The translations under genes and the position numbers were made by a program. From the NCBI GenBank assembly GCA_019637435.1, contig JAHBVO010000003.1, positions 620,001-684,000 of the forward strand: 64,000 nt of DNA, written 5' to 3'. Source of the DNA: Candidatus Obscuribacterales bacterium. Its GTDB lineage: Bacteria > Cyanobacteriota > Vampirovibrionia > Obscuribacterales > Obscuribacteraceae. Each line of letters starts with the position of its first letter. Within the stretch, counting starts at the first letter, position 1. Positions 3 through 58,483 of the stretch are shown here, piece after piece. The notes beneath the pieces were generated by a model. It saw nothing but the letters and a program-made list of their open reading frames with translations. It ran no database searches and was not told where the DNA came from.

Positions 3-2480
3 CTTGAGATAATTCCTCCGCGTCTGGTTGAATACAAAGGCGCGGTCCTCAGAGAGCTAGATATCGATGCTATCTTGATGCGAAAACCGCAAGTAGTTCT
101 AGTAGACGAGGCTGCGCACACGAATGCGCCCGGTTGCCGGCACGAGAAGCGCTGGCAAGATATACAGGAGTTACTCGCCAACGGAATCGATGTATTCACG
201 ACCTTAAACACCCAGCATGTTGAAACTCTCAACGACCGTGTTGCTCAGATTACTAATATCGAAGTAAGAGAACGTGTGCCGGATTCATTCATCGAAGACG
301 CTTTCGAAATTGAACTTGTTGATCTGCCGGTGGATGAACTTGTACAGCGGCTGCGCGAAGGCAAAGTTTACATTCACGAACAAGCGTCCACTGCCCTTGA
401 GCATTTTTTCCGCAAAGGCAATCTGATTGCCCTGCGCGAGATTGCGCTTCTGTTCGTTGCTCAGCGGGTGGATGCTCAGATGGAGCGTTATCGAGAGGCG
501 CACAGAATCGGCTCTGTCTGGCCGGCAGCCGAGCGCATTCTCGTATGCGTCAGTCCAAGCCCGCTTTCCGTCAAACTGGTCAGGGGCGCGAAGCGCATGG
601 CGACTGCCTTGCGAGCGGAGTGGTTGGTTGCATATGTTCAGACTCCAAGGCAAGCTCACCAGTCTGATGCCGATAAGTCTAGAGTCATTCAAACGCTGAG
701 ACTGGCAGAACAACTGGGTGCGGAGATAATCGAGCTGACTGGTGACAACATCGCTGACGAGTTGATTGGCTGCGCTCGGAAAAATAACGTTTCTAAAATT
801 ATCATCGGCAAGCCAGCGCTGCCGCGTTGGAAGGAGGTCTTATTCGGCTCGGTCGTCGATGACACGATTAGGAAAAGTGGTGCAATCGATGTTTATGTAA
901 TTACCGGGGAAGAGGGAATGCCATCGCAGACAGTGGCATTTGCCTGGAAGCGAACGACCAAAAGCTCTCATTACTGGACTGCGACCTTTATCGTGGCAGG
1001 TTGTAGCGGGCTTGCTTACTTGCTGTCGCACTATCTTGAACCGACTAACCTGGTGATGATTTACTTGTTAGGTGTATTCTTCGTGGCACTGAGATTAGGG
1101 CGTGGTCCGAGTATTCTCGCCTCGATTTTAAGTGTGGCCGTATTTGACTATTGTTTCGTTCCACCTTTTCTCACATTTGCAGTGAGCGATAGTCAGTATG
1201 TGCTTACGTTTTTCGTGATGTTGATGGTGGCGCTTTCGATTAGCACCCTTGCTACCCGTGTGAAGCAGCAGGCCGAATTTTCCTCATTGAAAGAGCGTCG
1301 AACTGCGTCTCTGTACTCTCTGAGCAAGGAACTGGCGTCGACCGATGATCCAGCCAAGCTCCTGCGAATTGGAGCTGAGCACCTGGCGGATGTTTTCGGC
1401 GCTAAAGTTTCGATTTTGACGCCGGACGAAAACGGGCAGCTAGCAATACCCGCTACCAAAGCGGACGATCGCGATCTGGAGATCTCCGACCTGGCGTTTG
1501 CGCAATGGGTTTTTCATAACAGGCAAATGGCGGGAGTGGGCACGAATACTTTGCCGGGCGCCGATGCCCTATACCTGCCTATCGCCGCCACTGAAAGAAC
1601 GATTGGCGTAGTAGGAATAAAACCGGAAGAACTTGATAGCTTTTCGAGACCTGAACAGATTCAGCTTTTGCAGACTTTCGTGAATCAGCTTGCTCAGGCT
1701 TGCGAGCGAGCCTATTTGTCGGAGGAGAACAAGCGCGCCCAGGTCCAAATGAAAACGGAGCAACTGAGAAGTTCTCTTCTAAGTTCGGTTTCGCATGACT
1801 TACGTACCCCGCTTGCCACCATAACTGGTGCGGCAAGCAGCATAATGGAGGCGCCGGAGACTCTCAGCATCGAAGCTTGCAAGGAGCGCGCCGCCGAGAT
1901 TTTTCATGAGTCCGTGCGGCTGAACAGGCTGGTCATTAATCTTCTGGAAATGACAAAGTTGCAGGCCGGAACGCTCACCGTTAAGCGCGAATGGTGTCCG
2001 GTCGATGAGCTAGTCGGATCCGCCGTAAGTTGTATAGATGAGAAGTTGGAGGCTCGTAAACTCGATATTGAAATTGAGGACCCGACAATGGTCGTTCCTG
2101 TCGACGCTACGCTGGTTCAGCAAGTACTCGTCAACTTGCTTGAAAACGCTATAAAATATTCTCCGGTCGATTCACCTCTAGCAATCAGTGCGAAACGCGT
2201 CGGGGAGAATTTGCTCTTATCTGTTTCCGACCGTGGCCCGGGTATTCCGATTGAGCGCAGAAAGTTGATATTCGAGAAGTTCTATAGAGAAAATCCGGGA
2301 GAGTCTTTCGGCGCCGGTCTCGGTCTGGCAATATGCAGTGGGATCGTCGAAGCGCATGGTGGCGAAATATGGGTCGAAGACAACCCGGGCGGCGGCTCCA
2401 TATTTTGCGTCAGTTTGCCGGTTGAATCGGTCGATTTACCGATGCTGGACCCTCTCAAGTTCACGGAAACATCGCTATGA
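3..2480 (+). CDS. kdpD: Sensor histidine kinase KdpD, 5' end outside window
   Basis: Membrane sensor kinase that controls K+ uptake genes together with KdpE. The reading frame is open from base 3, so the N-terminal Walker A part is missing only because the window starts here; the visible part begins inside the KdpD N-terminal domain (VDEAAHTNAPG and KRWQD, typical of the family). In order: rest of the KdpD sensor domain (to about nt 480), a USP-like domain (about 525-900), four closely spaced membrane helices (about 975-1260), a GAF-like region (about 1300-1720), HisKA with an intact SHDLRTPL box (His codon 1794-1796), and a complete HATPase (NLLENAIKYS, DRGPGIP, GAGLGLAIC). The stop overlaps the kdpE start (ATGA), so the two are cotranslated. 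The kdpFABC genes are not in the window and may lie upstream. Confidence 0.96.
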   Translation, partial: LEIIPPRLVEYKGAVLRELDIDAILMRKPQVVLVDEAAHTNAPGCRHEKRWQDIQELLANGIDVFTTLNTQHVETLNDRVAQITNIEVRERVPDSFIEDAFEIELVDLPVDELVQRLREGKVYIHEQASTALEHFFRKGNLIALREIALLFVAQRVDAQMERYREAHRIGSVWPAAERILVCVSPSPLSVKLVRGAKRMATALRAEWLVAYVQTPRQAHQSDADKSRVIQTLRLAEQLGAEIIELTGDNIADELIGCARKNNVSKIIIGKPALPRWKEVLFGSVVDDTIRKSGAIDVYVITGEEGMPSQTVAFAWKRTTKSSHYWTATFIVAGCSGLAYLLSHYLEPTNLVMIYLLGVFFVALRLGRGPSILASILSVAVFDYCFVPPFLTFAVSDSQYVLTFFVMLMVALSISTLATRVKQQAEFSSLKERRTASLYSLSKELASTDDPAKLLRIGAEHLADVFGAKVSILTPDENGQLAIPATKADDRDLEISDLAFAQWVFHNRQMAGVGTNTLPGADALYLPIAATERTIGVVGIKPEELDSFSRPEQIQLLQTFVNQLAQACERAYLSEENKRAQVQMKTEQLRSSLLSSVSHDLRTPLATITGAASSIMEAPETLSIEACKERAAEIFHESVRLNRLVINLLEMTKLQAGTLTVKREWCPVDELVGSAVSCIDEKLEARKLDIEIEDPTMVVPVDATLVQQVLVNLLENAIKYSPVDSPLAISAKRVGENLLLSVSDRGPGIPIERRKLIFEKFYRENPGESFGAGLGLAICSGIVEAHGGEIWVEDNPGGGSIFCVSLPVESVDLPMLDPLKFTETSL

Positions 2481-3184
2481 CTCAGCCCGCCAGTAATGCC
2501 GCAGTCGTACTCGTAATAGAAGATGAGGCGCCGATTCGGCGGTTTTTGAAGGTATCTCTGACTGAACACGGTTTCGTTTTCAAAGAATCTCTGACTGGCA
2601 ACGATGGGATCAATAAGGCGGCATTGGAGGCTCCCGACTTGATCATTCTCGATCTCGGATTGCCGGACATGGATGGGCTTGAAGTGACCAGGCGCATACG
2701 GGAATGGTCGACGGTGCCGATTATAGTTCTGTCGGCGCGTGGCAGTGACAAGGACAAAGTCAATGTTCTGGACGCCGGCGCTGATGACTATTTGACCAAA
2801 CCGTTTAGCGTTCCTGAACTTCTAGCGCGTGTTCGTGTCGCCTTGCGCCATGCCGCCATGATCGCTCCGGAGCCGGATGGTGCCAAATTCTCGGTAGGAA
2901 ACATTCGTGTCGATCTGGTAAAGCGGCAGGTTTTCGTCGGCGATGTCGAGGTTCACCTTACACCTATCGAGTACCGATTGCTTGTTGCCATGATTCAACA
3001 TGCTGGAAAAGTGGTTACACACAATCAGCTTCTCCGCCAGATCTGGGGCGAAGGATATGGCGAAGAAAGCCATTACGTAAGAGTTTTTATGGCGCAGTTG
3101 CGGCGAAAGGTTGAGGAAGATCCGGCTAGACCAAAGTATTTAATTACTGAACCTGGAGTCGGATACAGGTTAAAGGTCGAATGA
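2477..3184 (+). CDS. kdpE: Response regulator KdpE, OmpR/PhoB family
   Basis: DNA-binding response regulator paired with KdpD. The 235-aa protein has a receiver domain (acidic pair in VIEDEAP, phospho-acceptor Asp59 in LIILDLGLPDMDG, Lys in DDYLTKPF) and a C-terminal winged helix of the trans_reg_C type (LTPIEYRLL, HNQLLRQIWG, YVRVFMAQLRRKVE, GVGYRL). All phosphorylation residues are present. The start overlaps the kdpD stop by four bases. It is followed after 30 bp by the convergent gene ending at 3215. The known family role is activation of the Kdp K+-ATPase operon; what it controls here cannot be seen. Confidence 0.96.
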   Translation: MTQPASNAAVVLVIEDEAPIRRFLKVSLTEHGFVFKESLTGNDGINKAALEAPDLIILDLGLPDMDGLEVTRRIREWSTVPIIVLSARGSDKDKVNVLDAGADDYLTKPFSVPELLARVRVALRHAAMIAPEPDGAKFSVGNIRVDLVKRQVFVGDVEVHLTPIEYRLLVAMIQHAGKVVTHNQLLRQIWGEGYGEESHYVRVFMAQLRRKVEEDPARPKYLITEPGVGYRLKVE

Positions 3185-4382: not shown

Positions 4383-5432
4383 TCACCGCAACTTCGGCTG
4401 CTCACCGGAGTTTTCCCCGCTGGAAATTAGTTGCTTCTCGCTTTGCGCGGCCATTGCCAGTTCCAGTAAGAGTCGCTTCATTTTGCCGATCTCGGCTTCG
4501 AGCTGTTGAAGCATGACGCTGCGTGCGGTGAGCGTGCCGATCGACAGTCCTTTGCGTTGGGCGAAACTGGCCGTCAGTACATCAAGTTGCTTCTTCGACT
4601 GTCGGTCTGTAAACGCGGGCATATTTGCGTCTGTGATCCAGCGGTCGACAATCTGGTCGATTCGCTTTTTGCCATTTGTCTCAGTCGCCGGCACCTGATG
4701 GAGGAATTCCCAAACTGTCCGGGGATATTCGATTTCCGGATTTGTTGGATAGTCGAAGAGTTTAGCCAGCATATTGGGCTCTACTTCCGAGGTCATCTTT
4801 TTTCCGTTCATCTGCTTGAACGTGTACATCGAGGCAATGGAGGGTACTACGCCTGCCGGAATACCTATGATGCCGGAAGGGATGGCAAACCTCGCGTGTT
4901 TGTAGGCGGGAATTGCCAGCGCCTCGCATACCGCCCAGAGTGCACCATTGGCTATAAAGCCGGCCGCGTTCGTTCTTGCCACGGCTTTGTCTCTGTCACT
5001 CGTAAACGTGTTGAGAATTTCTTGATAAACTTCCTGTTCCGCGTTTATCTCAGCAATCGTGAAGTCGATTTCCAGGTTGGTGCGCTGGATTATCATCGCG
5101 ATCTTTTCGTTTAAATCATATAGTTCTTGCCTTGCAGACAGCAGCTCCAGGCTGTTTTGTTCGCCCATCGTCGAAATTCGCGATCGCAAGTTTTGACTTT
5201 GTTCAAGAAGCGGAGTCAACAGGATTGTGTCAGCGAGCTGCATACTGTTGGGGCTGATCCCGGGCGCCGTCAGATTTATACCGGTCTTCAAAATCTGGGT
5301 GGGGAATTGTGATGTGTTGGCTCCAGCCTCTCCTTTGGGCACCTGCGCGATTGCAGGCTGGTTGGTTTCGGCGTGAGCCGCGTGCAAGGACAGGCTCAAT
5401 AGGATGGAAAGAAGGGCGAGTTTACTTTTCAT
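4383..5432 (-). CDS. Secreted protein, paralog B of a three-member unknown family
   Basis: The 349-aa protein has a clear signal peptide (MKSKLALLSILLSLSLHAAHA, cleavage after AHA) and then the same conserved body as its neighbour at 3215-4369: FPTQILKTGINLTAPG, MQLADTILLTPLLEQ, IIQRTNLEIDFTIAEI, DRDKAVARTNAAGF, NGALWAVCEALAIP, GIIGIPAGVVPSIASMYT, EPNMLAKLFDYPTNPEIEYP, DRQSKKQLDVLTAS and KMKRLLLELAM. The conserved Gly/Pro-rich hydrophobic segment in the middle suggests membrane contact. It is the first gene of a two-gene minus-strand unit; an AGAGAG ribosome site precedes the ATG. No enzyme motif is visible. Function unknown. Confidence 0.85.
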   Translation of the reverse strand: MKSKLALLSILLSLSLHAAHAETNQPAIAQVPKGEAGANTSQFPTQILKTGINLTAPGISPNSMQLADTILLTPLLEQSQNLRSRISTMGEQNSLELLSARQELYDLNEKIAMIIQRTNLEIDFTIAEINAEQEVYQEILNTFTSDRDKAVARTNAAGFIANGALWAVCEALAIPAYKHARFAIPSGIIGIPAGVVPSIASMYTFKQMNGKKMTSEVEPNMLAKLFDYPTNPEIEYPRTVWEFLHQVPATETNGKKRIDQIVDRWITDANMPAFTDRQSKKQLDVLTASFAQRKGLSIGTLTARSVMLQQLEAEIGKMKRLLLELAMAAQSEKQLISSGENSGEQPKLR

Positions 5433-5753
5433 TGGAATCTCTCTTTGACCAGAGACGCAAATGCTATCAGTCGAGAGGTTGTAAAAGGGTCAAGAAACCA
5501 GGCTGACCGTATAAAGAAGTCATCAAGAATTTGCCTTGGCGAGTACCTGTACCGGCTTTTCTCGTGGAGTTTTGCTTGGTATCGTATATGGTGCTGGTTT
5601 TTACTCGTTCGTTTAACAGCGAGGGTTTGCTCGTTCACGCTAAGCGTTTGCGAGGATATCGTCCCGTCCCAGGAGTCTTATCAGTCGCCCGCCTGAAAAA
5701 ATAGTACCGCTGAGATTCTGGGCATAATGCGCGTGTCACTAATACTATTAGTT
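5433..5753. other. Intergenic region between divergent genes
   Basis: About 320 bp between the divergent genes at 4383-5432 (-) and 5754-7673 (+). It must hold both promoters. I looked for a c-di-AMP (ydaO-type) or other K+-linked riboswitch before the permease and found no conserved core; short open frames here have no ribosome site and no recognisable product. Confidence 0.4.
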
Positions 5754-7673
5754 ATGTCGGAAACAGAAAGAGCGTTCGGATTCAAAGAGTGGTTTCTTGC
5801 TGGTGCCAAGCCAGGAAGCGCTCAGGTGCAACACCAGGACGAGTGGTGGCGGGTCATGTGCCTGACCGGGGTCGACTATTTCTCGACTCTGGGATACCAG
5901 CCCGGCATCGCCTTTCTTGCTGCCGGTGTTTTGTCGCCCTTTGCCACGATTATCCTCGTTCTCGTCACACTGTTCGGAGCTTTGCCTACTTATTGCATCG
6001 TCGCGCGAGAGAGTCCGCACGGACAGGGAAGTGTGGCGATGCTCGAGAAGATGCTACCTGGCTGGATCGGCAAGACGATGGTGCTTGCGCTTCTAGGATT
6101 CGCGGCGACGGCGTTCATCATCACGATCACGCTTTCTGCGGCGGACGCGACCGCTCATATCGTCGAGAACCCGATTATTCCCGAGACCTGGCGGCATCAT
6201 CGCGTCGAGGTCACGATTGTTTTAATCGCCGCGCTTGGCGCACTTTTCTTGAAAGGCTTTCACGAAGCGATTGGCGTCTCTCTCATAATAGTGGTCGCCT
6301 ATCTCGGTTTAAACGCAATCGTTTTAGGACGGTCGGCGTATGAGCTCGCATTCGTGCAAAGTCATCTGATGGGCGAGTGGTACACATCGATGTTTAAACA
6401 GTACAGTTCGCCGGCGGTTATTTTTGGAATTTCACTATTGATGTTTCCCAAACTCGCTTTGGGTTTATCAGGATTTGAAACTGGTGTAGCAGTCTTGCCT
6501 CTCGTCAAGGGCGATTCCACAGATACTGAGGAATCGCCCACAGGACGTATTCGCAATGGAAAGAAACTGCTCGTGGCTGCCGGTGCGATTATGAGCTTGT
6601 TTCTCATTCCGAGCAGTATCGTGACGACGATGCTTATACCGGCCAATGAGTTTCAAGAGGGCGGCGAAGCTAATGGTCGTGCTTTAGCTTATCTTGCCCA
6701 CGAGTATCTCGGTCCGCAATTTGGCACCGTATATGATGTCAGTACGATCAGTATTTTGTGGTTCGCTGGCGCATCCGCTATCGCCGGGCTCTTGAGTTTA
6801 GTTCCGAAATACTTGCCGAGATATGGCATGGCGCCGAGCTGGGCTGCTGCGATTAGACCGCTGGTGGTCTTTTTCGTATCGGTCGCGTTCGGTGTTACCT
6901 GCATGTTTAAAGCGGGAGTTGATGAGCAAGCCGGAGCTTATGCGACAGGCGTTTTAGTACTGATCACATCAGCAGCAATTGCGGCGACTATCTCGATCTG
7001 GCCCACAGCGCGCCGCTCTGTCAGGATTTACTTCGCAGTTATTTGCTTTATCTTCGTCTACACCTGCTTCGCAAATATGTCCGAGCGACCGGAAGGTGTT
7101 CAAATAGCGTTGTTTTTCATTGCGAGTGTTCTCGTGGCGAGTGTCTTGTCGAGAGCGATGCGGGCGACCGAGTTGCGCGTGGAGCGCGTGACTTTTGATG
7201 ACACTGCTCATGCGTTCTTCCACGAAGCGCTCACTACATACATGGGCGAGATTAGGATTCTGGCTCATAAAGCCGGAATGAAAGATTTCCGTGAGGATGA
7301 GGCTCGTTCGAGATTCGTCCACAGCATTCAGCCTAACGAAGGCAATTTTATTTTGCTGGAAGTAAAACTGTCCGATGCGTCCGAGTTTTCCGAGGATTTG
7401 CTGGAGGTGACCGGGCACGTGGAAAACGGTTATCGTATCCTGCGATGCTCGAATCCGGCTGTTCCTAACGCAATTGCCGCAATTCTACTTGAGATCAGAG
7501 ACTTAACTCAGAAAATTCCGAACGCCTATTTCACATGGACGGAAGGGCACCCTGTGGCTTACGCCATCAAATACATTTTTCTCGGTGAGGGGGAAACAGC
7601 TACGCTGACTCGCGAAATCTTGCGAGTGGCAGAGCCGTACGAAGAACGACGACCGATTATCCACGTCGGTTAG
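5754..7673 (+). CDS. APC-superfamily permease with C-terminal cytosolic domain
   Basis: Polytopic transporter of the amino acid-polyamine-cation superfamily, 639 aa from the ATG at 5754 (a longer frame from 5727 only adds a hydrophobic run before MSETERAF). The early segment [17 protein letters not shown] carries the broken-helix Gly motif typical of APC helix 1. About twelve hydrophobic helices follow up to residue 470, including [17 protein letters not shown] and [20 protein letters not shown]. The last 150 residues are soluble (from [19 protein letters not shown] to the end). Proximity to kdpDE makes a K+ transporter (KUP/KimA-like role) possible, but amino acid transport is equally allowed by the sequence. 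Confidence 0.85.
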
Positions 7674-8476: not shown

Positions 8477-9889
8477 GTGGTCAGCGACACTAAGCGAGAA
8501 CCAGTTACATCAATAGTGCTTTCAGTCTTCAGGGACGTCACACCAGCGCGCCTCCGTCTGTTTCTAATTGGGAATTGCGGTCTGGCAATACTTTTTGCTG
8601 TGCTTGCAAACAATACCGTTGCGGATCACAGACATGCGCTGGATACGGTTGGTCGCTTCGCTGCACCATCGGTAGTGGCGGCTCATCAGATTCAGTCCGG
8701 CATCATGCTTATGGATCGCGGCTTGACGGATGAATTGATGTCGGACGATGATGAGATTGAGGGATTGATGGCCGCAGATTTCGATCGCGGCAGAATAATC
8801 GCCAGTCGAAATCTAATTCTAGCAGCGAAAAATATCACCTACGGCGATTCGGAACAGAAGCCGATCGAGGCTATGCAGCTCGGATTGGGCCGGTTTTTAA
8901 CGCATGCCCAGAAGGCGAGAGACCTGGACTCTTCCGGATCGAGCGAAGATGCTCGCGAGGTCTATAGAACCGCATACGATACCGTGAGCAAAGACCTTGT
9001 GCCCAATGCCAGAGCACTGTTGCAAGCGAACGTCGATGCTTTGGAAGAAACATACGCCAATGAGAAAGCTCGATCGGCGTTGATCTGTGGGCTCGTTTTG
9101 CTGCTCGGAATATTTTTGATTTGTGGTCTTACGACCGCGCACATTTACATGAGCGGTAAATTTCGCCGCCGCGTAAATCTGCCTCTACTCATCGCCATCT
9201 TCCTGACGGTAGCATTTGTTCAGCACTTGTACTCAGAGGTCAGGCAGAGCGCCGAGAGCCTCAAAAATGCCAAGGAAGATTCGTACGATTCGATTCTGGC
9301 AATTATGACTGCGCGAAGCGGTATTTATTCAGCAAATGCTGCACAAAGCAGGTTCATGTACGATCGCGAAAACGCTGCTGATTACGAGAAAGAATTTCAG
9401 AGTGAAGTAGATACAATCGCTAAATTTACTCCCGGACACAACTTTGCGTCAGCCATCGCAGTTGCTCAGAAAGAACTCAAAGATGACACTCAGAGGATAA
9501 ATATCCCCGGGCTAAGTGGCGCATTGGCTGTGGAGTTCGCCAATCTTGAATACGATGGCGAGGCGAAGTCGGCGCTGGAAAGTCTTCTTGCGATGAATGA
9601 TTTTTTGCTAACCGATCAGCGCATGCGCAAACTTGCTTTGGAGGGCAAAGAGGACGATGCGAGGCAGGTCTGTTTGGGCTATGAGCCGACGCGTTTGAAA
9701 TTTGCTTTCACCAGGCTGGATGACAGCCTCAATCGCGGATTGAAAATCAATCAGGAGCATTTCGAACAGTTAATTGTCGATGCCAATAGTGACCTCGCCG
9801 GTTTGGCGTCTTTGTCGCAGCTGTTCGCGCTGGTCATAGTAGTTCTGGTTTACACAGGCGTCACACCGAGGCTCCGGGAGTATCTGTAA
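8477..9889 (+). CDS. Membrane protein with two sensor-like helical domains
   Basis: Start uncertain: TTG 8453 (overlapping the previous stop), GTG 8468 or GTG 8477; AGGGG at 8464-8468 is best spaced for 8477. About 470 aa. A membrane helix (LFLIGNCGLAILFAVLA) is followed by an extracytoplasmic helical region, a second helix (ALICGLVLLLGIFLICGLTTAHIYM), a third (LPLLIAIFLTVAFVQHLY), another helical region, and a last helix near the C-terminus (LFALVIVVLVYTGV). The two soluble parts resemble four-helix-bundle sensor domains of chemoreceptors and kinases, but there is no HAMP, kinase or methyl-accepting domain. It may be a partner sensor subunit; this is inference. Confidence 0.7.
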   Translation: MVSDTKREPVTSIVLSVFRDVTPARLRLFLIGNCGLAILFAVLANNTVADHRHALDTVGRFAAPSVVAAHQIQSGIMLMDRGLTDELMSDDDEIEGLMAADFDRGRIIASRNLILAAKNITYGDSEQKPIEAMQLGLGRFLTHAQKARDLDSSGSSEDAREVYRTAYDTVSKDLVPNARALLQANVDALEETYANEKARSALICGLVLLLGIFLICGLTTAHIYMSGKFRRRVNLPLLIAIFLTVAFVQHLYSEVRQSAESLKNAKEDSYDSILAIMTARSGIYSANAAQSRFMYDRENAADYEKEFQSEVDTIAKFTPGHNFASAIAVAQKELKDDTQRINIPGLSGALAVEFANLEYDGEAKSALESLLAMNDFLLTDQRMRKLALEGKEDDARQVCLGYEPTRLKFAFTRLDDSLNRGLKINQEHFEQLIVDANSDLAGLASLSQLFALVIVVLVYTGVTPRLREYL

Positions 9890-9967
9890 ACACGGACGTT
9901 TGCCGATGTTTGTAGGGGATGAGCTGGATAAGCAGATTCTCAGTTTGTCCCAGTGTTTAGCAATCAA

Positions 9968-10004
9968 CTCTCGCTTCGCGGTGTTTCGATGCGAAGTGCG
10001 GGAG
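9968..10004. other. Hairpin upstream of paralog C
   Basis: An imperfect inverted repeat (CTCTCGCTTCGC ... GCGAAGTGCGGGAG) with an 11-base loop lies between the stop at 9889 and the start at 10105. There is no clear T-tract, so it could be a weak terminator of the permease unit or a leader structure of the downstream gene. Confidence 0.3.
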
Positions 10005-10104
10005 TGCTGTCTTTCAACAAATGTTCTCCCCGTGCGATAGGTGTTAAAATCCAGGCGCTCAGGTGTTTTCTTCTGAATCTTAGATAAAGTCGCTCTTCGG
10101 ATTG

Positions 10105-11202
10105 ATGAAAAGGGAATCTTTAAATACCGCCAGAAAGGCGCTTATTGCCGTGAGTACCGCGCTGATTTGTCTGACTGCGTGCTGCGGGTCTGAAGCGGTT
10201 GCCCAGAATATAGTTCAAAAGCTTGTGCAGCGTGAGAGCAGCTCCAACACTGTTTCCGAACCTAAGCAGATGTTGCGGACTGGTGTCGATTTGTGCGAAC
10301 CAGGGCTATCAGTCAATTCGATTCAACTGGCGACCTCCCTGGGACTACTGCCGATACTCAAGGATATCGAGGTTCTCCGCCAGCGCGTTGCTGGCATGCC
10401 GAATGATGGAAGTCTGGAGCGTCTAAATGTCCGGCAAGATCTGACCGAGGCGACTCAAAAGGCGATGTTGATAGTACAGAAAACCAATCTTGATGCCGAT
10501 TTCACGATTGCGGAAATTCAAGCAGAGCAGATGGTTTATACCGAAATTTTAGATTCGTACTATGATGATCGTGACCGCGCGCTTGCGAGAACAAACGCCC
10601 TGAGCTTTATGAGCAATGGTGCGCTCTGGGCGGTTTGCGAGGGCTTGGCGATTCCGACTTACAAGCACTCACAGTATGCAATTTCATCGGGCATCACCGG
10701 TATTCTGGCAGGAATTGTGCCTTCCATCGCCTCGATGTACACTCTCAAACAGGTTAACGGGAAGAAGAAGATGTCGGAGACCGAGCCTAATATGCTCGCT
10801 AAGCTTTTCGACTATCCCACGAACATCGATATCGATTATCCGAAATCAATCTGGGAATTCCTGAACGAGGTCCCTGCAAATGAGCCAGGCAAGAAGACGC
10901 GCCGAGAGCAGTTGATCGACGGTTGGGTAGCGGACGCTAACATTCACACATTTAACGACAGAAATTCAAGAAGGCAGCTCGATATTATTACGGCTAGCGC
11001 TCCTCACAAAAAGGGTCTAACGATTGAAACTTTAGAAGTGCGCACTGTAATGCTTCAGAAGCTGACCGGCGAAATTATGAAAATGAAAAGGATGTTGCTC
11101 GAACTCGACATGGCCATCATCGGAGAGAAGCAATGCGTGGCATATGACGAAGGAAAACGCAAGCACGTGAGCAGCACTGCCGGTGGTGGCAAGCTGCAAT
11201 AG
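10105..11202 (+). CDS. Putative lipoprotein, paralog C of a three-member unknown family
   Basis: 365 aa from the ATG at 10105. The N-terminus is hydrophobic and ends in LICLTACCGSE, where LTAC fits a lipobox, so this member may be lipid-anchored whereas its two paralogs at 3.2-5.4 kb are not. The body keeps the family signature in the same order: MLRTGVDLCEPGLSVNSIQLA, VQKTNLDADFTIAEIQAEQ, DRDRALARTNALSF, SNGALWAVCEGLAIPTYKH, GITGILAGIVPSIASMYT, NGKKKMSETEPNMLAKLFDYPTN, DRNSRRQLDIITAS and KMKRMLLELDM. Three copies within 8 kb point to local duplication. Function unknown. Confidence 0.85.
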   Translation: MKRESLNTARKALIAVSTALICLTACCGSEAVAQNIVQKLVQRESSSNTVSEPKQMLRTGVDLCEPGLSVNSIQLATSLGLLPILKDIEVLRQRVAGMPNDGSLERLNVRQDLTEATQKAMLIVQKTNLDADFTIAEIQAEQMVYTEILDSYYDDRDRALARTNALSFMSNGALWAVCEGLAIPTYKHSQYAISSGITGILAGIVPSIASMYTLKQVNGKKKMSETEPNMLAKLFDYPTNIDIDYPKSIWEFLNEVPANEPGKKTRREQLIDGWVADANIHTFNDRNSRRQLDIITASAPHKKGLTIETLEVRTVMLQKLTGEIMKMKRMLLELDMAIIGEKQCVAYDEGKRKHVSSTAGGGKLQ

Positions 11203-11210
11203 CGCGATGT

Positions 11211-11366
11211 CTAGCGAAGTTTCGCTCTCTCGTTTCCGCGTGGGTGGTTTTTAACCGTGGATGGTCGCAGATCATGCTCCATCCAGTGCTCTATTAGTCC
11301 GTCTATGAGCCTGCCCATCAGGTACGCGAATGGAAGGTACAGTAACAGAATCAAGTAAACATCCAT
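11211..11366 (-). CDS. Small membrane protein (51 aa)
   Basis: A 51-aa frame from the ATG at 11366 (MDVYLILLLYLPFAYLMGRLI...), preceded by a strong ribosome site GGGAGGTGTGCC. The N-terminal half is one membrane helix, the C-terminal half is polar (HDLRPSTVKNHPRGNERAKLR). A longer frame from 11450 has no ribosome site and a different character, so I reject that start. Convergent with paralog C (8 bp gap). Function unknown. Confidence 0.55.
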   Translation of the reverse strand: MDVYLILLLYLPFAYLMGRLIDGLIEHWMEHDLRPSTVKNHPRGNERAKLR

Positions 11367-11492
11367 GGCACACCTCCCTCTACGCCTTGTCCTCTCATTA
11401 GACGACAATCCGTGTACGGGTGGTGTCAAAACGAAACGGCTGTGCATCAAGATAAGATTAAGATCTGACTACAGCCCTTCCGGTCGGTCTAG

Positions 11493-12395
11493 CTAATTCT
11501 GTCCGACCCAACTCTCTTTAGCTGTTTTGTCCCAGCGATCGCGAATCTTCGCGAATTTGCTCTTACTGATTTCGCCTGACGCGAGCAGATTTGCATTGGT
11601 TTTCCATCTGCCGGGCTTGGCTGTGCCTACGATTGCCGTGTGGACACCAGGAACGGTGAGTGTGAATTTCAGCGCGACCTCGACTGCATGCTCGGTATCT
11701 CCGTTTACAAAATCGTATTTCAACTCCTGGAGCCGCTCCCAGTATTCCTGATGATAGCTGTTGTCAGGTTTGGCTTTGTAGCGCCAGGCGACATTGGCAA
11801 TCGGTCGTTTAGCGATCACGCCCATACCGCGCGCCATTGCTTTGGGCAGTGTCAGCTCGAGCGCCTCCTGGTCTGCGATATTCACTGATGTTTGTAAGGT
11901 GTCGAACTCGCCGCTCTCTATGGCATAAACAGCAGCAGTCGAATCGCCGCTATAGCCGACGAAGCGTGTTTTGCCTTTTGCCTTTGCATCTTGCAATGCG
12001 CGAATCACATCGCCTTTTCTCAGAATATCTTCCCCGCAGCTGTGCAGCTGAACGAGATCGAGGTATTCGACTTTCAAACGCTTCAAGCTTTGTTCGATGG
12101 ACGCGGTAACTTCCTCGTAAGTCCAGGCCGGTATCGAAGGGTCCTTTCCGTGTCCCGCCTTGGTAAACAGATAAAAGTCATCGCGGCGGTGCGAAACAGC
12201 TTTTCCGATCAGTTCTTCGCTTCCCAGGTAACATTCGGCGGTGTCGATAATGTTTAACCCCTGGTCGAGTGCTGCCATGAGCAGGCGCTCGACGTTGTCC
12301 GCCGATGCATCTTCAAAACCGATTTCAGCGCCGCCGAAGCCCAGCACGCTGACTTCCATGCCGGTATTTCCGAGCATACGTTTTTCCATGGACAT
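11493..12395 (-). CDS. Aldo/keto reductase family oxidoreductase
   Basis: NAD(P)H-dependent reductase with the TIM-barrel aldo/keto reductase fold, about 300 aa. The usual tetrad is visible: Asp and Tyr in NIIDTAECYLGSEE, Lys in YLFTKAGHG, His in DLVQLHSCG. The N-terminal MLGNTGMEVSVLGFGGAEIGF is the family's opening strand. Start set at the ATG at 12395 (MSMEKRM, GAGG upstream); 12389 is also possible, and the longer frame to 12467 adds sequence not seen in the family. Cytoplasmic; substrate cannot be deduced. Divergent from the secreted-module gene at 12544. Confidence 0.9.
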   Translation of the reverse strand: MSMEKRMLGNTGMEVSVLGFGGAEIGFEDASADNVERLLMAALDQGLNIIDTAECYLGSEELIGKAVSHRRDDFYLFTKAGHGKDPSIPAWTYEEVTASIEQSLKRLKVEYLDLVQLHSCGEDILRKGDVIRALQDAKAKGKTRFVGYSGDSTAAVYAIESGEFDTLQTSVNIADQEALELTLPKAMARGMGVIAKRPIANVAWRYKAKPDNSYHQEYWERLQELKYDFVNGDTEHAVEVALKFTLTVPGVHTAIVGTAKPGRWKTNANLLASGEISKSKFAKIRDRWDKTAKESWVGQN

Positions 12396-25018: not shown

Positions 25019-27223
25019 TTACGAGGGTAGCGTGATTGCAAAACCGTCTCTGCCGTTTCTGGATTCAATGCTGAGAGTTCCCCGATGCCCTTCAACTGTG
25101 GCTCTTGCTAGCGCAAGACTCAGCCCACTGACCGTCCAGGTGTCGTGCTGAGCAAGGTCTACGATTGCGTATCGCTTCAAGCATGTCTCTCGAGTTTGTT
25201 CGGGGATTATGCAGCCTGTTGAAGTAATGAATAGCGAAACCCGCCCTGGTGTGCGCTCAACGTTGACTGAAACATCATTGGAATTATCACTGAAGCGGAG
25301 TATTGCGAGCGCGAAGCTCACGACAGCAAGAACCAGTCTCTCGACATCGGCTCGGAATGGCATGTGTGCATCCGGTGTATCGCAAGTGATCGTGCGGTTT
25401 TTGTCGGGGCACATCTCGTTTAAACTATCATTCGCTAGTGAGACCAGTTTCAACGCGGTCGTTTCTTGCGTTTCAAATGCGAATGCGCCCGACTCAATTT
25501 TTTCCAGGTCAAGGAAGTCGTTGATGAGGCAAACGAGTTTGCCGATTTTATTTTCAGCTTCGACAAGCGTTTCGATTTCAACCTGCTCCTCGGCAGTTTT
25601 AGACTTTTCTTTCCGGTCTCCCATCTGCGCTGCCATCATGCCGAGAGTGCCATGAAGTGATGTTAGCGGAGAACGCAAATCGTGGCTGATCATGGAGATG
25701 AAGTCACGTTTTACGTTTTCAATCTCGCGCCGCGTCGTGATGTCTTGGAGAACCGCAAGAGAGTATTCTTTGCCATGATTGAAGTATCGGTTTGCCATAA
25801 ATGACACCGCCAGCGGTGACCCATCTTTTCGATATGACTGCAGCTCAAGTGAATGTGTTTCCGCCGCTTTGACGATTGCAGCGTCATCTGCGCCTCCTGT
25901 GGAGCTGCCGGTAAACAGGATGCTAAACTCTCGACCGAGCAATTCATTGACGTGGTACTGAAACATTTTTGTTGTAGTCGGATTTGCGGAGGTGATCTGA
26001 AATGCGTTGTTTAGCGATAGAACTGAAAGCGGCAAGCTATCAATTATTTTTCTGAATCGCTCTTCGCTTTCGCGCATCAACCGCCGAACCCGATTTCTTT
26101 CAGTAATGTCGTGCGCAATTAAGACTGCCGAGCTGTGATCTTCCCCCGGCTGCGCTGACCATAACAAGTCCAGATGCTCGCCATCTTTTTTTCGAATTGT
26201 GTTTTCAAATGAAACTGATTGCCCCTGATAGAAAAGCCGGTCGATCGCTTCGAGCGTTCGCTCAGTACTTTCCGCTTGAGTAAGTGAGCTGAGACGTCTT
26301 CCAATAAGGTCATCAGGACTGTATCCCCAGAGTCCACTGCTTGCCTGATTTACCTCTGTAAAAACACCTTTGTCGTTCAATGAGCAGATAAACTCGGCTG
26401 CGTTTTCCAGAATCGTTCGTTCCTTACTTTTATAGTCGTCCAGAATGTGTCCGAGATCGCGAATGGCGTTGTCGAGCTGGGCAATTTCGTCATCGCCGGT
26501 GATTGGCGCAGCAAGCGGTTTTCCCATTGCAAGATTGACGGTATTGTCGGCGACGATTTTGAGACGCTTCGTCACTTGCACGAATACGTATCGGAAAAGC
26601 AAGAGTGCAATTCCTAGATTGATCGATACGCCAATCGCCAGTGTGAACACAATCATTCCAACTGATTGTGTTTTGAGTTCATCACTTGCGGCCTGTTCAG
26701 TCCGTGAGAATTTGACAAGAAGTTTTTCAAGTCGCTCTGTCGTTGAATTCGACGCTTCTTGAAGTTTATACAACAGAAAATAATGTTCACGAGACTCGGT
26801 GAGTTTGTTCCTCAGCTTTTGCATGAGGTCAACTCCCTCTTGATAGTTATCCAGGAGTTCTTCAAAGTCTTTTCTGACTTCAGGGTAGTCTCGAAAGTCA
26901 CGTTTCAATTGCGTGAATTCCTTCGGATAGCTGGCAGCGATATCCGTAAGGCCCTGTGTGTATTTTTCCGGATTGCGCTGATGCGAGTGGGTCGTCACGT
27001 TTTCCAGAACTTCAAGTGTCATGCTTTGGGTCAGATTCGACAATCGACTGAGTCTTCCGACGATATTTTTTGCGCGCTTGACCTTTTCCATCTGCGAGAA
27101 AGTGTCGTTGATCATCAAGCCGAGATAGCCTGCAAAAGCCGTTTGCAGCAGTGCGATTGTGCCGCAGAGAATCAGCATTCTTTTGCTTAGATTCGAAGTG
27201 GGTTTTCGCACAGCGGTGCTCAT
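25019..27223 (-). CDS. Histidine kinase with intact phospho-acceptor box but degenerate ATPase
   Basis: 734 aa; the ATG overlaps the stop of the upstream kinase gene (ATGA at 27220-27223). Membrane helix near residues 15-35, an outer helical sensor (about 36-185), second helix (about 190-212), HAMP-like linker, two PAS domains (about 265-375 and 385-500), then HisKA with FISMISHDLRSPLTSLHG (His514). The C-terminal ATPase region keeps the fold but not the residues: the N-box Asn is Ala (VSFALAILRFS), DxGxG is TSTGCIIP, and GTGLGL is VSGLSL. It may accept phosphate from another kinase, most obviously the upstream partner, which has the opposite defect. Confidence 0.88.
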   Translation of the reverse strand: MSTAVRKPTSNLSKRMLILCGTIALLQTAFAGYLGLMINDTFSQMEKVKRAKNIVGRLSRLSNLTQSMTLEVLENVTTHSHQRNPEKYTQGLTDIAASYPKEFTQLKRDFRDYPEVRKDFEELLDNYQEGVDLMQKLRNKLTESREHYFLLYKLQEASNSTTERLEKLLVKFSRTEQAASDELKTQSVGMIVFTLAIGVSINLGIALLLFRYVFVQVTKRLKIVADNTVNLAMGKPLAAPITGDDEIAQLDNAIRDLGHILDDYKSKERTILENAAEFICSLNDKGVFTEVNQASSGLWGYSPDDLIGRRLSSLTQAESTERTLEAIDRLFYQGQSVSFENTIRKKDGEHLDLLWSAQPGEDHSSAVLIAHDITERNRVRRLMRESEERFRKIIDSLPLSVLSLNNAFQITSANPTTTKMFQYHVNELLGREFSILFTGSSTGGADDAAIVKAAETHSLELQSYRKDGSPLAVSFMANRYFNHGKEYSLAVLQDITTRREIENVKRDFISMISHDLRSPLTSLHGTLGMMAAQMGDRKEKSKTAEEQVEIETLVEAENKIGKLVCLINDFLDLEKIESGAFAFETQETTALKLVSLANDSLNEMCPDKNRTITCDTPDAHMPFRADVERLVLAVVSFALAILRFSDNSNDVSVNVERTPGRVSLFITSTGCIIPEQTRETCLKRYAIVDLAQHDTWTVSGLSLALARATVEGHRGTLSIESRNGRDGFAITLPS

Positions 27224-29403
27224 TTGAGATTCTCATTCGACGGTTTATACAGGGGAACTGTGAACCAGAAGCGACTGCCTGAGCCCTCTTCGCTCTCCAC
27301 GCCGATTGAGCCTCCATGAGCTTCGACAATTGATTTGCAAATTGACAAGCCTAAGCCGGTGCCTTTACCACGCCGTCCGTCGGCGGCTGACGTCTGAATG
27401 TATTGTTCGAAGATCGAGGCGCGCATATTTTCGGGAATGCCTCTTCCTCTATCGACGATGCTAAACTCGACATGCTCCGCATGCTCCTCGACCTTGAGTG
27501 AAACAGTTGAGTTTCTGGGAGAAAATTTGATTGCGTTGCCGGTCAAGTTTACAATCACCTGCACCAGCCGTTCTCGGTCACCAGATATGGTGCTTGTGGA
27601 TTCTTCGTGCTCTAGAGATATGCCCTGTTGTTCGGCGTGGTCGCTGATGGCTTCGACGGCGCCGCGTATCACGTCGTGAACTTGCACAGGTTTTAACGAG
27701 CCGACCAATCGACCTGCACCCAGCTTCTGTATGCTGAGTAGTTCATCGATAAGTCGCAACAAACGTTCGATGTTAGTGCAAACCCGAGCGAGTCTATCAA
27801 GCTTTTTCGATTCGAGGTTGTTTCTCTGCAAGAGAGCAGAGACTCTCATCCGAGTGTCGTTGAGCGGTTCGCGCAGGTTGCGACCGAGGATGTTGACGAA
27901 ATCCGCTTTCATCGTTTCCAGCTTCACGCGTTCGCTTACATCGTCCAGGACGAGTAACCGGTCGTATTTCTCTTCTTCCAAGTTTGCGGAGGTTATTTCA
28001 ACAGGTAGATTGTGACCGTCAGGTAGTTTCAACGAGCAGCGACTTGTCAGGTTGGTCGACTTTGATTCAAGAGCTTGTAGAAGATCTTCGGCAACACCGT
28101 CGTCGGCTTCCAGCACCGAGAGCACCGGTCTGAAGGTCAAATCCTGACGAGTTCGCCCAGTCATCCTTTCTGCTGTTGCATTGACCGATTGAATGAAACC
28201 ATCTCGATTAATCGCGATCAATCCAACCGGGATGTTTTCGGTAGCGTTGCGAACCTGCTCTTCCTGTGCGGCTAGCAGAGCCTCCATATTTTTCAGTTCA
28301 GTCATGTTGTGAACGAAGCAGAACAGCGATTCGGCCGTTGTCGACCAATAAACGGACCAGGTTGTATCTATGTGTTCCTCAGTGCCGGTTAAAACGAACG
28401 CTTCGAAATTCGATCGCTTGCCGGAAGACATCAGTTGTTTAACTTCTGCAGAAACTCTTTCTGCGTCTTCAGCGCGCAAGATTGAGCTGAAGTGTTTTCC
28501 GATCAGATAATCAGGTTCGTAATGCCATTGCGATCTGACTGATGGGCTCAGTGATATGAACATTCCATCCGAGTCGAGTTGACAGATTACTTCCGAAGCA
28601 TTTTCAATTAAAGCCGCTTCGTTACGCCGTGCTGTTTGAATTGCGGTTGTCATCTCGTGGAACAGAGAGTCGATCATACCAATTTCATCGGTGTATGGAA
28701 TACGCTCATTCAAGGGTTCTTCTCTGGAAAAACGGTCGACATTGTCTGAGAGCGTCGCGATTCGCCCGGTGATTCTCTTGACTAAAACCATCGCGACGAA
28801 TACAGCACCGAGGAGATTTACGAGGGCGGCTGTGATGAGAACTACCTGTGCGTCGCTGAGTGCTTTCACTGTATCGGATGGTTTTGTTTGTTCCGTATTC
28901 CGGTATCGCTTGATCAATTCTTGAGATAGTCGCGTGACGTTTGACGACAGACGGAACATAGTTTTATTGAACGTCTCAAACCCTTCCGGCGATTGACGAA
29001 AAGTTGATTGCTGCGAATCATAGTAATTACAAGTAGCCGAAGCAGCGCGTTCTAACTCGTCCAGTTTGCGCTGTGATTCGGGATCATTTCGCACCAGATC
29101 CTTAAGGCGAGTGATTTCGCGGTTTAACTGTCCCAGAAATCCGTGATAATCGGTTGAACTTTCGACGAATTGAAGTAGTTCCGGTGGCGACGCGGAGCGA
29201 ATCATAGCGATGCCGATCTTCTGCGAGATGTTGGCAAGATTATTGAGACCGACGGCTACTTCGCGGTCGTGTTGCTCCTGATCGAGAAGGTCTTTGGTTT
29301 TAAAAAGCAATCCAGCAAGCGTTCCAATGAACAAAAACTCGACGGCGAGTAACAGGCAAATGCCTATTAAACCTTGCTTGGTAATCGTGATTCTTCTGAG
29401 CAT
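27220..29403 (-). CDS. Histidine kinase with intact ATPase but no phospho-acceptor His
   Basis: 727 aa with the same layout as the downstream gene: membrane helix (about residues 13-35), outer helical sensor, second helix (about 185-207), HAMP-like segment (about 208-260), two PAS domains (about 262-375 and 382-495), HisKA-like and HATPase domains. The H-box reads FVNILGRNLREPLNDTR, with Arg508 where SHELRTPL has His. The ATPase is complete: DRERLVQVIVNLTGNAIKFS, VDRGRGIP, FEQY, GKGTGLGLSICKSIVEAHGG. It can bind ATP by sequence but cannot autophosphorylate in the usual way. Overlap with the next gene supports a complex of the two. Confidence 0.88.
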   Translation of the reverse strand: MLRRITITKQGLIGICLLLAVEFLFIGTLAGLLFKTKDLLDQEQHDREVAVGLNNLANISQKIGIAMIRSASPPELLQFVESSTDYHGFLGQLNREITRLKDLVRNDPESQRKLDELERAASATCNYYDSQQSTFRQSPEGFETFNKTMFRLSSNVTRLSQELIKRYRNTEQTKPSDTVKALSDAQVVLITAALVNLLGAVFVAMVLVKRITGRIATLSDNVDRFSREEPLNERIPYTDEIGMIDSLFHEMTTAIQTARRNEAALIENASEVICQLDSDGMFISLSPSVRSQWHYEPDYLIGKHFSSILRAEDAERVSAEVKQLMSSGKRSNFEAFVLTGTEEHIDTTWSVYWSTTAESLFCFVHNMTELKNMEALLAAQEEQVRNATENIPVGLIAINRDGFIQSVNATAERMTGRTRQDLTFRPVLSVLEADDGVAEDLLQALESKSTNLTSRCSLKLPDGHNLPVEITSANLEEEKYDRLLVLDDVSERVKLETMKADFVNILGRNLREPLNDTRMRVSALLQRNNLESKKLDRLARVCTNIERLLRLIDELLSIQKLGAGRLVGSLKPVQVHDVIRGAVEAISDHAEQQGISLEHEESTSTISGDRERLVQVIVNLTGNAIKFSPRNSTVSLKVEEHAEHVEFSIVDRGRGIPENMRASIFEQYIQTSAADGRRGKGTGLGLSICKSIVEAHGGSIGVESEEGSGSRFWFTVPLYKPSNENLK

Positions 29404-56047: not shown

Positions 56048-58483
56048 CTATCTCGTGGTGGTCTCGATGTGCGCTGGTAGCGTGAAGTAGATGCTCGTGC
56101 CGCGTCCAGCCTCGGACTCCGCCCAGATTTTTCCGCCCAGCCTCTCGACGTTGTTGCGCGCCAGGTACATCGATAGTCTTAAACTGTAAGTGTCTTCCGA
56201 ATGTTTGCCCGCAATGAAACCGGCAAACATGTCTTCGATCTCGACGGGGGGAAGCGCAGGTCCGGAGCTGGATACGGTGATTCTCATCTCGTCTCCGCGA
56301 ATCGCGCTCTCTACCCTGACTCTGCCACCAGCGGCGGTGATGACGATGAGATGATGGAGAACCTGTACGAGGATTCCACGAACGGCATCCTTGTTGCCGG
56401 TAATTGAAGGCAGACCGGTAACCGTTTTGTAATCGAGCAAAAGCTGCCGTTCTCTCGCGAGCGGCGTCACTTCTTCTAAGCAGTCCGCAACCAGTCGGGT
56501 GATTATGATTTGTTCGCGCGGCACTACCGGCGGTGGTATGAAGCCGCCGTACATCATCAGGTAACTATCGACGACATGCAAAAGCTGTTCGTATTGTCCG
56601 TGAAGTTCCGTCAGAGACTGCGCTACTTGAGGGTGCATCGATGTGCCGGCGTTCGATAAAATCGAGTGCCAGCGCGATTCTCCTTGCGCAAGATTGGCGC
56701 GGATAGCGTCCTGGAGCATCGCAACTATTTCTTGCCGCAGCTGCGCGTTTTCGGTTCTCAAAGACTTGTCGCGCAAAACCATTACGTATCCCTGGATGTT
56801 ATTGTCCTCACCGCAGATCGGCTGCAGGTGTGCAAGGACCTCGACAAATTTCGATTCTTCGCGAGTGTTGTAGACGACAGCTTCCGGATAGAACCTGTTC
56901 AAAACTGCGTTTGGATCGCCTCCGTGCCTTGCGAATGCCTGTCCAAATATGGTTCTCGTTCGAGCCTCACCGGGTTTCTTAACCAGATCGAAACAGAGCC
57001 GTCCTGCGATCTCACCCTCGGAGCAACCGGCCCAATTCAAGAACACCGGATTGGCCGACAAAATATTTCCGTAACCATCGAGAATCAAAAATCCCTCGGT
57101 TGATGACTGCATAACAGCGTCGAGCTTATGCTGAACAACGATCGCCTGTTTGTTAGCCTGATTTATCTGCTTCGAGACTTCGCTTAGTTGTCTCGATTGC
57201 GTTGATATCTGGCGGTTCAAACTCTCAATCTTGGTCGTCGAACTCTCTACCAGCTTCGTCTTCTCTTCGATTTCTTCGTTTTGGCGGCTGACCTTTTGTT
57301 TCAAATTCACCATGCTCGAACGCATGGTGCTGACGGCCGTGTCGATCAATTCTCCCAGTTCAAGCCATTCTCCGGATAGTCCCTCCAGTGGTGGAATTCT
57401 CTTTTTCTGCTCCGCGATATCTTCGGTTCTCAAAATCAAGAACTCCAGTGGCTCATCGACACTGGCTTTAATTCGCTGAGTCAAGACGAAACCGACAAGC
57501 AGAGCAATACCGCCAAAGATACCGGATACGAGGAAGACCGTGAAAATCTTGCCGGTCAAATCCGGTACAGGAGTGGATACCAGCATTACGGCTAGCTCCT
57601 GGTGCGGGCGATTTGGAAATTTTATGCCGGTAAAGACTTGTTTGTACCAGAGGCGTCCGTTCTTCTCGAAGCTGCCATCGGCAATTTCGGGGTCCAGCGG
57701 TACCAACGCTTTGGTAAGTGCATTGGGAAAAGGAGGAAACATATCCTTCGGAATCACGGAGGTGCCCTTGCGTCCCAGCTCTTGAACAAATGGACCGCCG
57801 TCTCCACCGGTCAAACCCGGCGTTGCTGCGACTACTTTTTTGGCGGTGTTTGAAAATACAAGAAGGTCGATGCCCTGAACCGGCTGCGGCTCTTCGAGTC
57901 CAAACTTAGTCACTTCGCCAATCAAGTATTCGTTTGAAAATGGCTGACTAACGGCCACAAGACCTTTAAGACCGCCGGACGATTCCATGATCGGCAGAAT
58001 CGCCGACATGGTGAATGTTTGAGAGTTGGCTGCGTTAGCGGCGCCGTAGTAAATGTTGTGATGTTGCGGATACTGCATCATAAACTGCACGGCTTCATTG
58101 TTAGCCGCCGCAGAAGAGCCGAACTTTGCCGGCGTCTCCGAGCTGTAAAATACGTTGCCTTTTTCGTCAATGATTACAACGAACCCCGGAAAGTGACCTT
58201 CCTTGATTGCGCTGTTCAATGCTTCAGCAAGCGCGCGCCGGTCCTTCCGTCCGTACGCTTGCATGATCGACTGGTTTCCGATAATAACTTTGGCAAATGC
58301 TTCCGAAGAGGCTTTCAATGCGTCGTTGTCACGACCGAGCTTCTTATAAGCCATCGCCACTTTGACTCCGGCTGCCTGTCTGGTCGTTCGGAACTCGGTG
58401 TACAACGAAAAAACGGAAAGACTAGCCACCATGATTGCGATCACGACGACAAAAGCAAAAATCAGTTTTGAACCTAGACCCAA
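56048..58483 (-). CDS. Double-Cache sensor with PAS and degenerate kinase domains
   Basis: 811 aa from TTG 58483 (GGAGAGCCG before it). A membrane helix (about residues 6-27), a large double-Cache-like outer region (about 45-310; FPGFVVIIDEKGNVFYSSETP, GLKGLVAVSQPFSNEYLIGEV), second helix (about 313-335), HAMP (about 336-395), a coiled coil (about 400-465), and a PAS domain (about 470-585; GFLILDGYGNILSANPVFLNWAG). The kinase part lacks an H-box and has lost N-box (VLHHLIVITAAGG), DxGxG (SSSGPAL) and G-box residues, while the ending GGKIWAESEAGRGTSIYFTLP keeps the HATPase fold. A signalling pseudo-kinase. Confidence 0.85.
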   Translation of the reverse strand: MGLGSKLIFAFVVVIAIMVASLSVFSLYTEFRTTRQAAGVKVAMAYKKLGRDNDALKASSEAFAKVIIGNQSIMQAYGRKDRRALAEALNSAIKEGHFPGFVVIIDEKGNVFYSSETPAKFGSSAAANNEAVQFMMQYPQHHNIYYGAANAANSQTFTMSAILPIMESSGGLKGLVAVSQPFSNEYLIGEVTKFGLEEPQPVQGIDLLVFSNTAKKVVAATPGLTGGDGGPFVQELGRKGTSVIPKDMFPPFPNALTKALVPLDPEIADGSFEKNGRLWYKQVFTGIKFPNRPHQELAVMLVSTPVPDLTGKIFTVFLVSGIFGGIALLVGFVLTQRIKASVDEPLEFLILRTEDIAEQKKRIPPLEGLSGEWLELGELIDTAVSTMRSSMVNLKQKVSRQNEEIEEKTKLVESSTTKIESLNRQISTQSRQLSEVSKQINQANKQAIVVQHKLDAVMQSSTEGFLILDGYGNILSANPVFLNWAGCSEGEIAGRLCFDLVKKPGEARTRTIFGQAFARHGGDPNAVLNRFYPEAVVYNTREESKFVEVLAHLQPICGEDNNIQGYVMVLRDKSLRTENAQLRQEIVAMLQDAIRANLAQGESRWHSILSNAGTSMHPQVAQSLTELHGQYEQLLHVVDSYLMMYGGFIPPPVVPREQIIITRLVADCLEEVTPLARERQLLLDYKTVTGLPSITGNKDAVRGILVQVLHHLIVITAAGGRVRVESAIRGDEMRITVSSSGPALPPVEIEDMFAGFIAGKHSEDTYSLRLSMYLARNNVERLGGKIWAESEAGRGTSIYFTLPAHIETTTR

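Follow-up and report, generated by a model that had tools for sequence, protein, structure and literature searches.

Sensor histidine kinases are generally treated as homodimers. Here, we examined a 64,000-nucleotide stretch of DNA from Candidatus Obscuribacterales bacterium (contig JAHBVO010000003.1; hereafter, the window) that encodes two overlapping sensor kinase genes, A (upstream) and B (downstream), each of which appears to have lost the catalytic function that the other retains. An operon-encoded precedent is FasB/FasC of group A Streptococcus, described in a 2025 paper. The kinase domain of FasB is necessary, the kinase domain of FasC is dispensable, and FasC His246 is required; in the proposed division, the kinase domain comes from FasB and the histidine from FasC (PMC12675982). 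Two-hybrid assays returned signals for the hetero- but not the homodimers, with one regulator as the output (PMC12675982). As in the window, two membrane sensor kinase-like genes share one operon, one contributing the catalytic and ATP-binding (CA) domain and the other the histidine. A prior sequence-only reading of the window, which knew of no operon-encoded pair of sensor kinases, is therefore outdated on this point. The likeness considered here is one of description and of general kinase domains. FasBC also differs in that its regulator, FasA, is encoded in the same operon, whereas the window pair has no adjacent regulator. In addition, FasB differs from A in that histidines H241 and H284 remain in its dimerization and histidine phosphotransfer (DHp) domain, with H284 not excluded as a phosphorylation site; because FasB retains these residues, reciprocal loss is not established for FasBC.

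CheA3/CheA4 of Rhodobacter sphaeroides, which the sequence-only reading had offered as a parallel, likewise divide the ATP site and the phospho-acceptor histidine between two proteins, which are active as a mixture but not singly (PMC3591291). In that system, the division is one of whole-domain loss (CheA3 lacks P3 and P4; CheA4 lacks P1), whereas A and B keep the full layout of sensor, PAS, DHp, and CA domains and have lost one function each. A and B are not CheA proteins but HisKA/HATPase_c sensor kinases with PAS domains and without the P1 Hpt acceptor architecture. From domain counts, up to 1.7% of kinases were estimated as possibly split and bifunctional, and for bifunctional split kinases theory predicts ultrasensitivity or bistability (PMC3591291). 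Hik36/Hik43 (PilL-N/PilL-C) of Synechocystis, which interact in two-hybrid assays, have also been termed a split histidine kinase (PMC7656254). They differ from A and B in being a CheA-like protein divided between domains, with genes at distant loci. In HK1-HK2-TcrA, neighboring genes encode an ATP-binding kinase, a histidine-carrying protein, and one regulator; this kinase, too, is divided between domains and does not consist of two complete twin sensors. The gene set is Rv0600c-Rv0601c-Rv0602c of M. tuberculosis (PMC8965865). Lastly, DivL, RetS, and evolved ChrS are inactive kinase-like proteins that act via partner kinases, some as heterodimers (PMC9491836). Their partner kinase is complete, and the relation is regulatory, unlike the one divided catalytic cycle considered for A and B. 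Within the open-licence literature, we found no description of a clade in which twin sensors of full length show fixed, two-sided reciprocal loss and have multiplied within a genome. The new part is thus reciprocal loss fixed throughout a duplicated clade.

Reciprocal loss in two overlapping sensor kinases

Judged by sequence motifs in the window pair and in 13 A-type and 13 B-type proteins, the ATP-binding and phospho-accepting functions fall on two different polypeptides. We consider it probable that a single membrane sensor histidine kinase is formed as a heterodimer, to which A and B each contribute one obligate subunit. The coordinates, the ATGA overlap, and the occurrence of Arg508 alongside intact N, G1, and G2 boxes in A were all confirmed in the sequence (Table 1). 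The loss of the N, G1, and G2 boxes from B, which keeps His514, was confirmed as well; the observation as a whole had been under-stated. Pfam profiles agree, with a HATPase_c match of 105 bits in A (HisKA reaches 22.2 bits, below the 26.9 cut-off) and a HisKA match of 42.9 bits in B (HATPase_c, at 28.8 bits, lies just above the 26.4 cut-off). The layout said to be common to both proteins was borne out for two helices and two PAS domains. The hydrophobic helices span residues ~12–30 and 187–208 of A and ~16–34 and 191–209 of B, with a region of periplasmic size between them in each case, and the two PAS domains are supported in both. The HAMP domain was not recovered, as Pfam gave no match in window A or B; a DEIxxxDxxFxxM-like motif is present nonetheless. 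Across homologues, Pfam assigned HAMP to 1/13 A-type and 0/13 B-type proteins, and no Hpt or CheW domain appeared in the Pfam results for either type.

Motifs were scored against a profile of ordinary relatives, with six ATP-site residues considered and 83 other kinase domains, taken from loci retrieved for the comparison, serving as the background. The phospho-acceptor histidine is absent from every A-type protein, where R, E, Q, T, or S takes its place, and is kept in all 13 B-type proteins. Conversely, the six ATP-site residues are all present in 13/13 A-type proteins, while three at most are left in any B. Two observations that the sequence-only reading had named as grounds for rejection, an A homologue with a histidine and a B homologue with normal ATP boxes, did not occur (0/13 each). 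Among the background domains, both functions are complete in 76 of 83. Because 13 A-type and 13 B-type proteins share the pattern against such a background, it is not attributable to chance, and the split-kinase interpretation first drawn from the window pair gains support. Pfam domain assignments follow the same division: HATPase_c is found in 13/13 A-type and HisKA in 13/13 B-type proteins, with the complementary domain detected in only 5/13 and 6/13, respectively. The HDLRSPL motif is invariant among aligned B homologues. The H+4 residue, which serves phosphatase activity in HisKA kinases, is no longer kept in A, where E, D, S, A, or K is found; it is Ser in 13/13 B-type proteins and Thr in 65/83 of the others. 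A GxxGxL-like hairpin loop in the DHp domain occurs in 0/13 A-type and 2/13 B-type proteins versus 55/83 other kinases; by way of speculation, its loss may reflect a changed dimer geometry.

Distribution, ancestry, and constraint of the pairs

We searched the family (50 genomes) and the order (53 genomes), first with both proteins and then with transmitter profiles; many of these genomes are incomplete, and a limited number of candidates was scored in each. Profile searches of the order's genomes separated 13 A-type transmitters (325–368 bits; next match, 270) and 13 B-type transmitters (226–304 bits; next match, 178). Nine genomes, from 4 of 24 genera and all in a single family (f1), carry the two types at a 1:1 ratio. 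The window's own genome (G000) holds four pairs, namely the window pair and those at C3:1102k, C6:145k, and C4:765k. One pair is found in G014, a genome of the same genus, with 59% identity to the window pair in both proteins. G025 holds two pairs, and G044, G004, G005, G006, G007, and G008 hold one each. No B-type protein was found beyond this family among 382 genomes of the class (seven candidates scored in each) or 386 genomes of the phylum (two in each). A contig search with A as the single query returned only one distant relative, with 28% identity across its C-terminal half.

Twelve of the 13 pairs are adjacent, with A preceding B and an overlap of 4 to 14 bases, from which operon structure was deduced. 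The remaining pair, in G025, appears to be cut by contig ends: A and B lie at the ends of contigs C78 and C157 in compatible orientations, and their adjacency is presumed because of this placement. A lack of conserved pairing, which would have spoken against a split kinase, was thus not observed. Gene overlap and co-inheritance fit a stoichiometric complex and thereby disfavor an alternative in which A and B form separate homodimers and A phosphorylates B through collision, as in a relay. Homodimers are the default of HisKA kinases, and sequence alone cannot discriminate between these arrangements; however, phosphorylation of DHp by CA in HisKA kinases normally requires a dimer. The two-hybrid signals of FasB/FasC also favor hetero- over homodimers (PMC12675982). 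We regard such a relay as very improbable.

A tree built from 40 full-length kinases places the A-type proteins in one clade and the B-type proteins in another, each with a Shimodaira-Hasegawa-like approximate likelihood ratio test (SH-aLRT) support of 100. Branching within the two clades matches, with the window pair joined to G014, a group comprising G025, G025x, G000b, G000c, and G000d, and G044 joined to the g5 genomes. Because the A and B clades branch alike, the pair predates these lineages and was duplicated as a unit. The presence of four diverged pairs in one genome poses a question of insulation, namely whether each A is specific to its own B.

Sequence conservation is distributed differently in the two proteins. 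Among A-type proteins, the CA domain has a higher mean pairwise identity than DHp helix 1 (0.51 versus 0.39), whereas the order is reversed among B-type proteins (0.26 versus 0.60). On these identities, constraint is reciprocal, the conserved parts being the H-box helix of B and the ATPase domain of A. Ratios of nonsynonymous to synonymous substitution rates (dN/dS), obtained with our own implementation of the Nei-Gojobori method, are well below 1 in each domain with enough changes. For the degenerate CA domain of B, dN/dS is ~0.10 in three comparisons. The sole comparison without saturation, G007/G008, rests on few changes. Given these ratios, the dead CA domain of B is kept by selection. Ordinary decay, in which tandem kinases drift toward pseudogenes and the complementary losses are coincidental, has next to no probability in our estimation. 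Degenerate kinases do exist, such as that encoded at window positions 56048–58483, but pseudogene decay of the pairs was ruled out by open frames and motifs retained in 13 pairs from four genera, the low dN/dS, and the mirrored trees.

AlphaFold2 models retain the DHp and CA folds in both transmitters. The A transmitter (mean predicted local distance difference test score [pLDDT], 80) matches kinase cores in the PDB, and the kinase fold is preserved in the B transmitter (pLDDT, 82), whose PDB matches include DivL, HK853, and RetS. That DivL, RetS, and HK853 are among the nearest folds favors a further alternative, in which A is an ATP-binding regulatory pseudokinase, B is a phosphatase-only or docking protein, and another kinase supplies the phosphate. 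Precedents are RetS, which gates GacS, and DivL, which gates CckA. Taken alone, A and B are each pseudokinases, the genome encodes >100 candidate kinases, and most pairs lack an adjoining regulator, all in keeping with such an allosteric pair. Nonetheless, it accounts poorly for exactly complementary halves that are strictly kept in 13 pairs (the H-box in B and every ATP box in A), for obligate 1:1 pairing with co-duplication, and for perfect N, G1, and G2 boxes, which would be needless were A purely allosteric. We therefore judge an allosteric pair unlikely.

A putative two-protein kinase and its output

To judge from their motifs, phosphorylation at the canonical histidine position is impossible for A, as is canonical ATP binding for B. 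What we infer beyond this is a heterodimer of A and B, phosphorylation in trans, a phosphatase role, two-input logic, and the type of regulator that the window pair would use. Gene overlap would couple the expression of A and B, which would pair via their DHp helices. If they do so, the losses would leave exactly one productive active site, at which ATP bound by the CA domain of A would serve to phosphorylate His514 in B. The phosphoryl group would then move from B to a response regulator, which for several paralogous copies may be the divergently encoded OmpR/PhoB-type protein. Any phosphatase activity would be carried by B, as B alone holds the His-Asp-x-x-Ser motif. Because sensor regions, periplasmic and PAS, are present in both A and B, output would need both proteins, and two inputs could be integrated.

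At 4/13 pairs (G044, G006, G025x, and G000d), a gene for an OmpR-type regulator lies close to A in divergent orientation. In a tree of 28 regulators, these four pair-linked proteins form a clade of six (support, 100/100) together with a copy at C4:754k in the window's genome and a copy in G013 that adjoins an ordinary kinase. The occurrence of this clade beside the pairs supports a conventional output, in which B would signal to a DNA-binding regulator. The C4 copy is unpaired (G000:C4:754172-754837; L147 7173–7850, plus strand), lies ~10 kb from the C4 pair, and is a candidate shared partner.

Several points weigh against a heterodimeric kinase of this design. No response regulator adjoins the window pair or its G014 orthologue, and the pair-linked regulator clade is not represented in G014. 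B may act beyond the role of phospho-acceptor, since its CA domain stays folded and selected. Furthermore, the DHp hairpin loops of A and B differ from those of most relatives, so that no particular phosphorylation geometry can be taken for granted. If correct, the heterodimeric reading, with the catalytic cycle irreversibly split over two complete sensors, would provide a natural obligate heterodimer in which the direction of phosphorylation, cis/trans geometry, dimer specificity, and signal integration are readable without engineered mutants. The A/B pairs would also give a non-CheA test of the predicted ultrasensitivity or bistability (PMC3591291).

A reversed case and the surrounding genes

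At L079 (G013:C249, 4512–8983) and L080 (G027:C21, 5040–9487), two full-length sensor kinases are encoded in tandem by overlapping genes, and each has all of its catalytic boxes intact; split pairs may have begun in such a state. At a third locus, L081 (G021:C217:38000-55000), kinase genes at 9792–11960 and 5316–7529, both on the minus strand, each have one counterpart in the G027 pair, with which they group at supports of 96 and 99. The upstream G021 gene keeps SHDLRTPL and has lost its N, G1, and G2 boxes, while the downstream gene reads SEDLATPL with intact ATP boxes. Because the two genes lie ~2.2 kb apart, with other open frames between them, and were seen in a single genome, this locus is suggestive of a second, independent origin of reciprocal loss in reversed order. 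On this evidence, split pairs may arise repeatedly from tandem kinase duplicates through reciprocal loss. The broader proposal, that an obligate two-protein kinase clade with two inputs and a single active site formed via reciprocal degeneration, multiplied as a unit, and recurred in reverse in G021, is in our view evenly balanced. Elsewhere, a kinase at L114 (G020:C24) combines SHDLRTPL with partly eroded G1 and G2 boxes (DSGIAV and GAGVAL).

Table 1. Positions of genes A and B and their catalytic motifs in the window
Feature	Position	Strand	Description
Gene A (upstream)	27220..29403	minus	727 aa; ATP-binding, His-less sensor kinase; two transmembrane helices, two PAS, HisKA-like DHp, intact HATPase_c
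Gene B (downstream)	25019..27223	minus	734 aa; phospho-acceptor sensor kinase; two transmembrane helices, two PAS, HisKA with His514, degenerate HATPase_c
A H-box GRNLREPL, residues 507–514	27862..27885	minus	Arg508 replaces His
A N-box NLTGNAIKFS, residues 619–628	27520..27549	minus	Intact
A G1 box DRGRGIP, residues 651–657	27433..27453	minus	Intact
A G2 box GTGLGLSI, residues 681–688	27340..27363	minus	Intact
ATGA, stop of A and start of B, 4-base overlap	27220..27223	minus	
B H-box SHDLRSPL, residues 513–520	25664..25687	minus	Intact, His514
B N-box SFALAILRFS, residues 636–645	25289..25318	minus	Degenerate; Ala640 at catalytic Asn position
B G1 box STGCI, residues 668–672	25208..25222	minus	Degenerate; DxGxG expected
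B G2 box VSGLSL, residues 698–703	25115..25132	minus	Degenerate; GTGLGL expected

The window pair and its G014 counterpart have two neighbors in common: a TetR gene with 79% identity and, in convergent orientation, a YceI-domain gene with 62%. The sole histidine kinase/regulator system found near the window pair is a KdpD-like kinase overlapping an OmpR-type regulator (KdpD/KdpE-like; 3–3184, plus strand). The 811-aa protein encoded at 56048–58483 (minus strand) comprises a coiled coil, a PAS domain, and a kinase-like C-terminus; with a degenerate H-box (QDAIRANL) and N, G1, and G2 boxes that are degenerate too, it is a doubly dead pseudokinase. Further along the window, 62244–63947 (minus strand) encodes a 567-aa protein that combines an Hpt domain and a GGDEF domain with two receiver domains.
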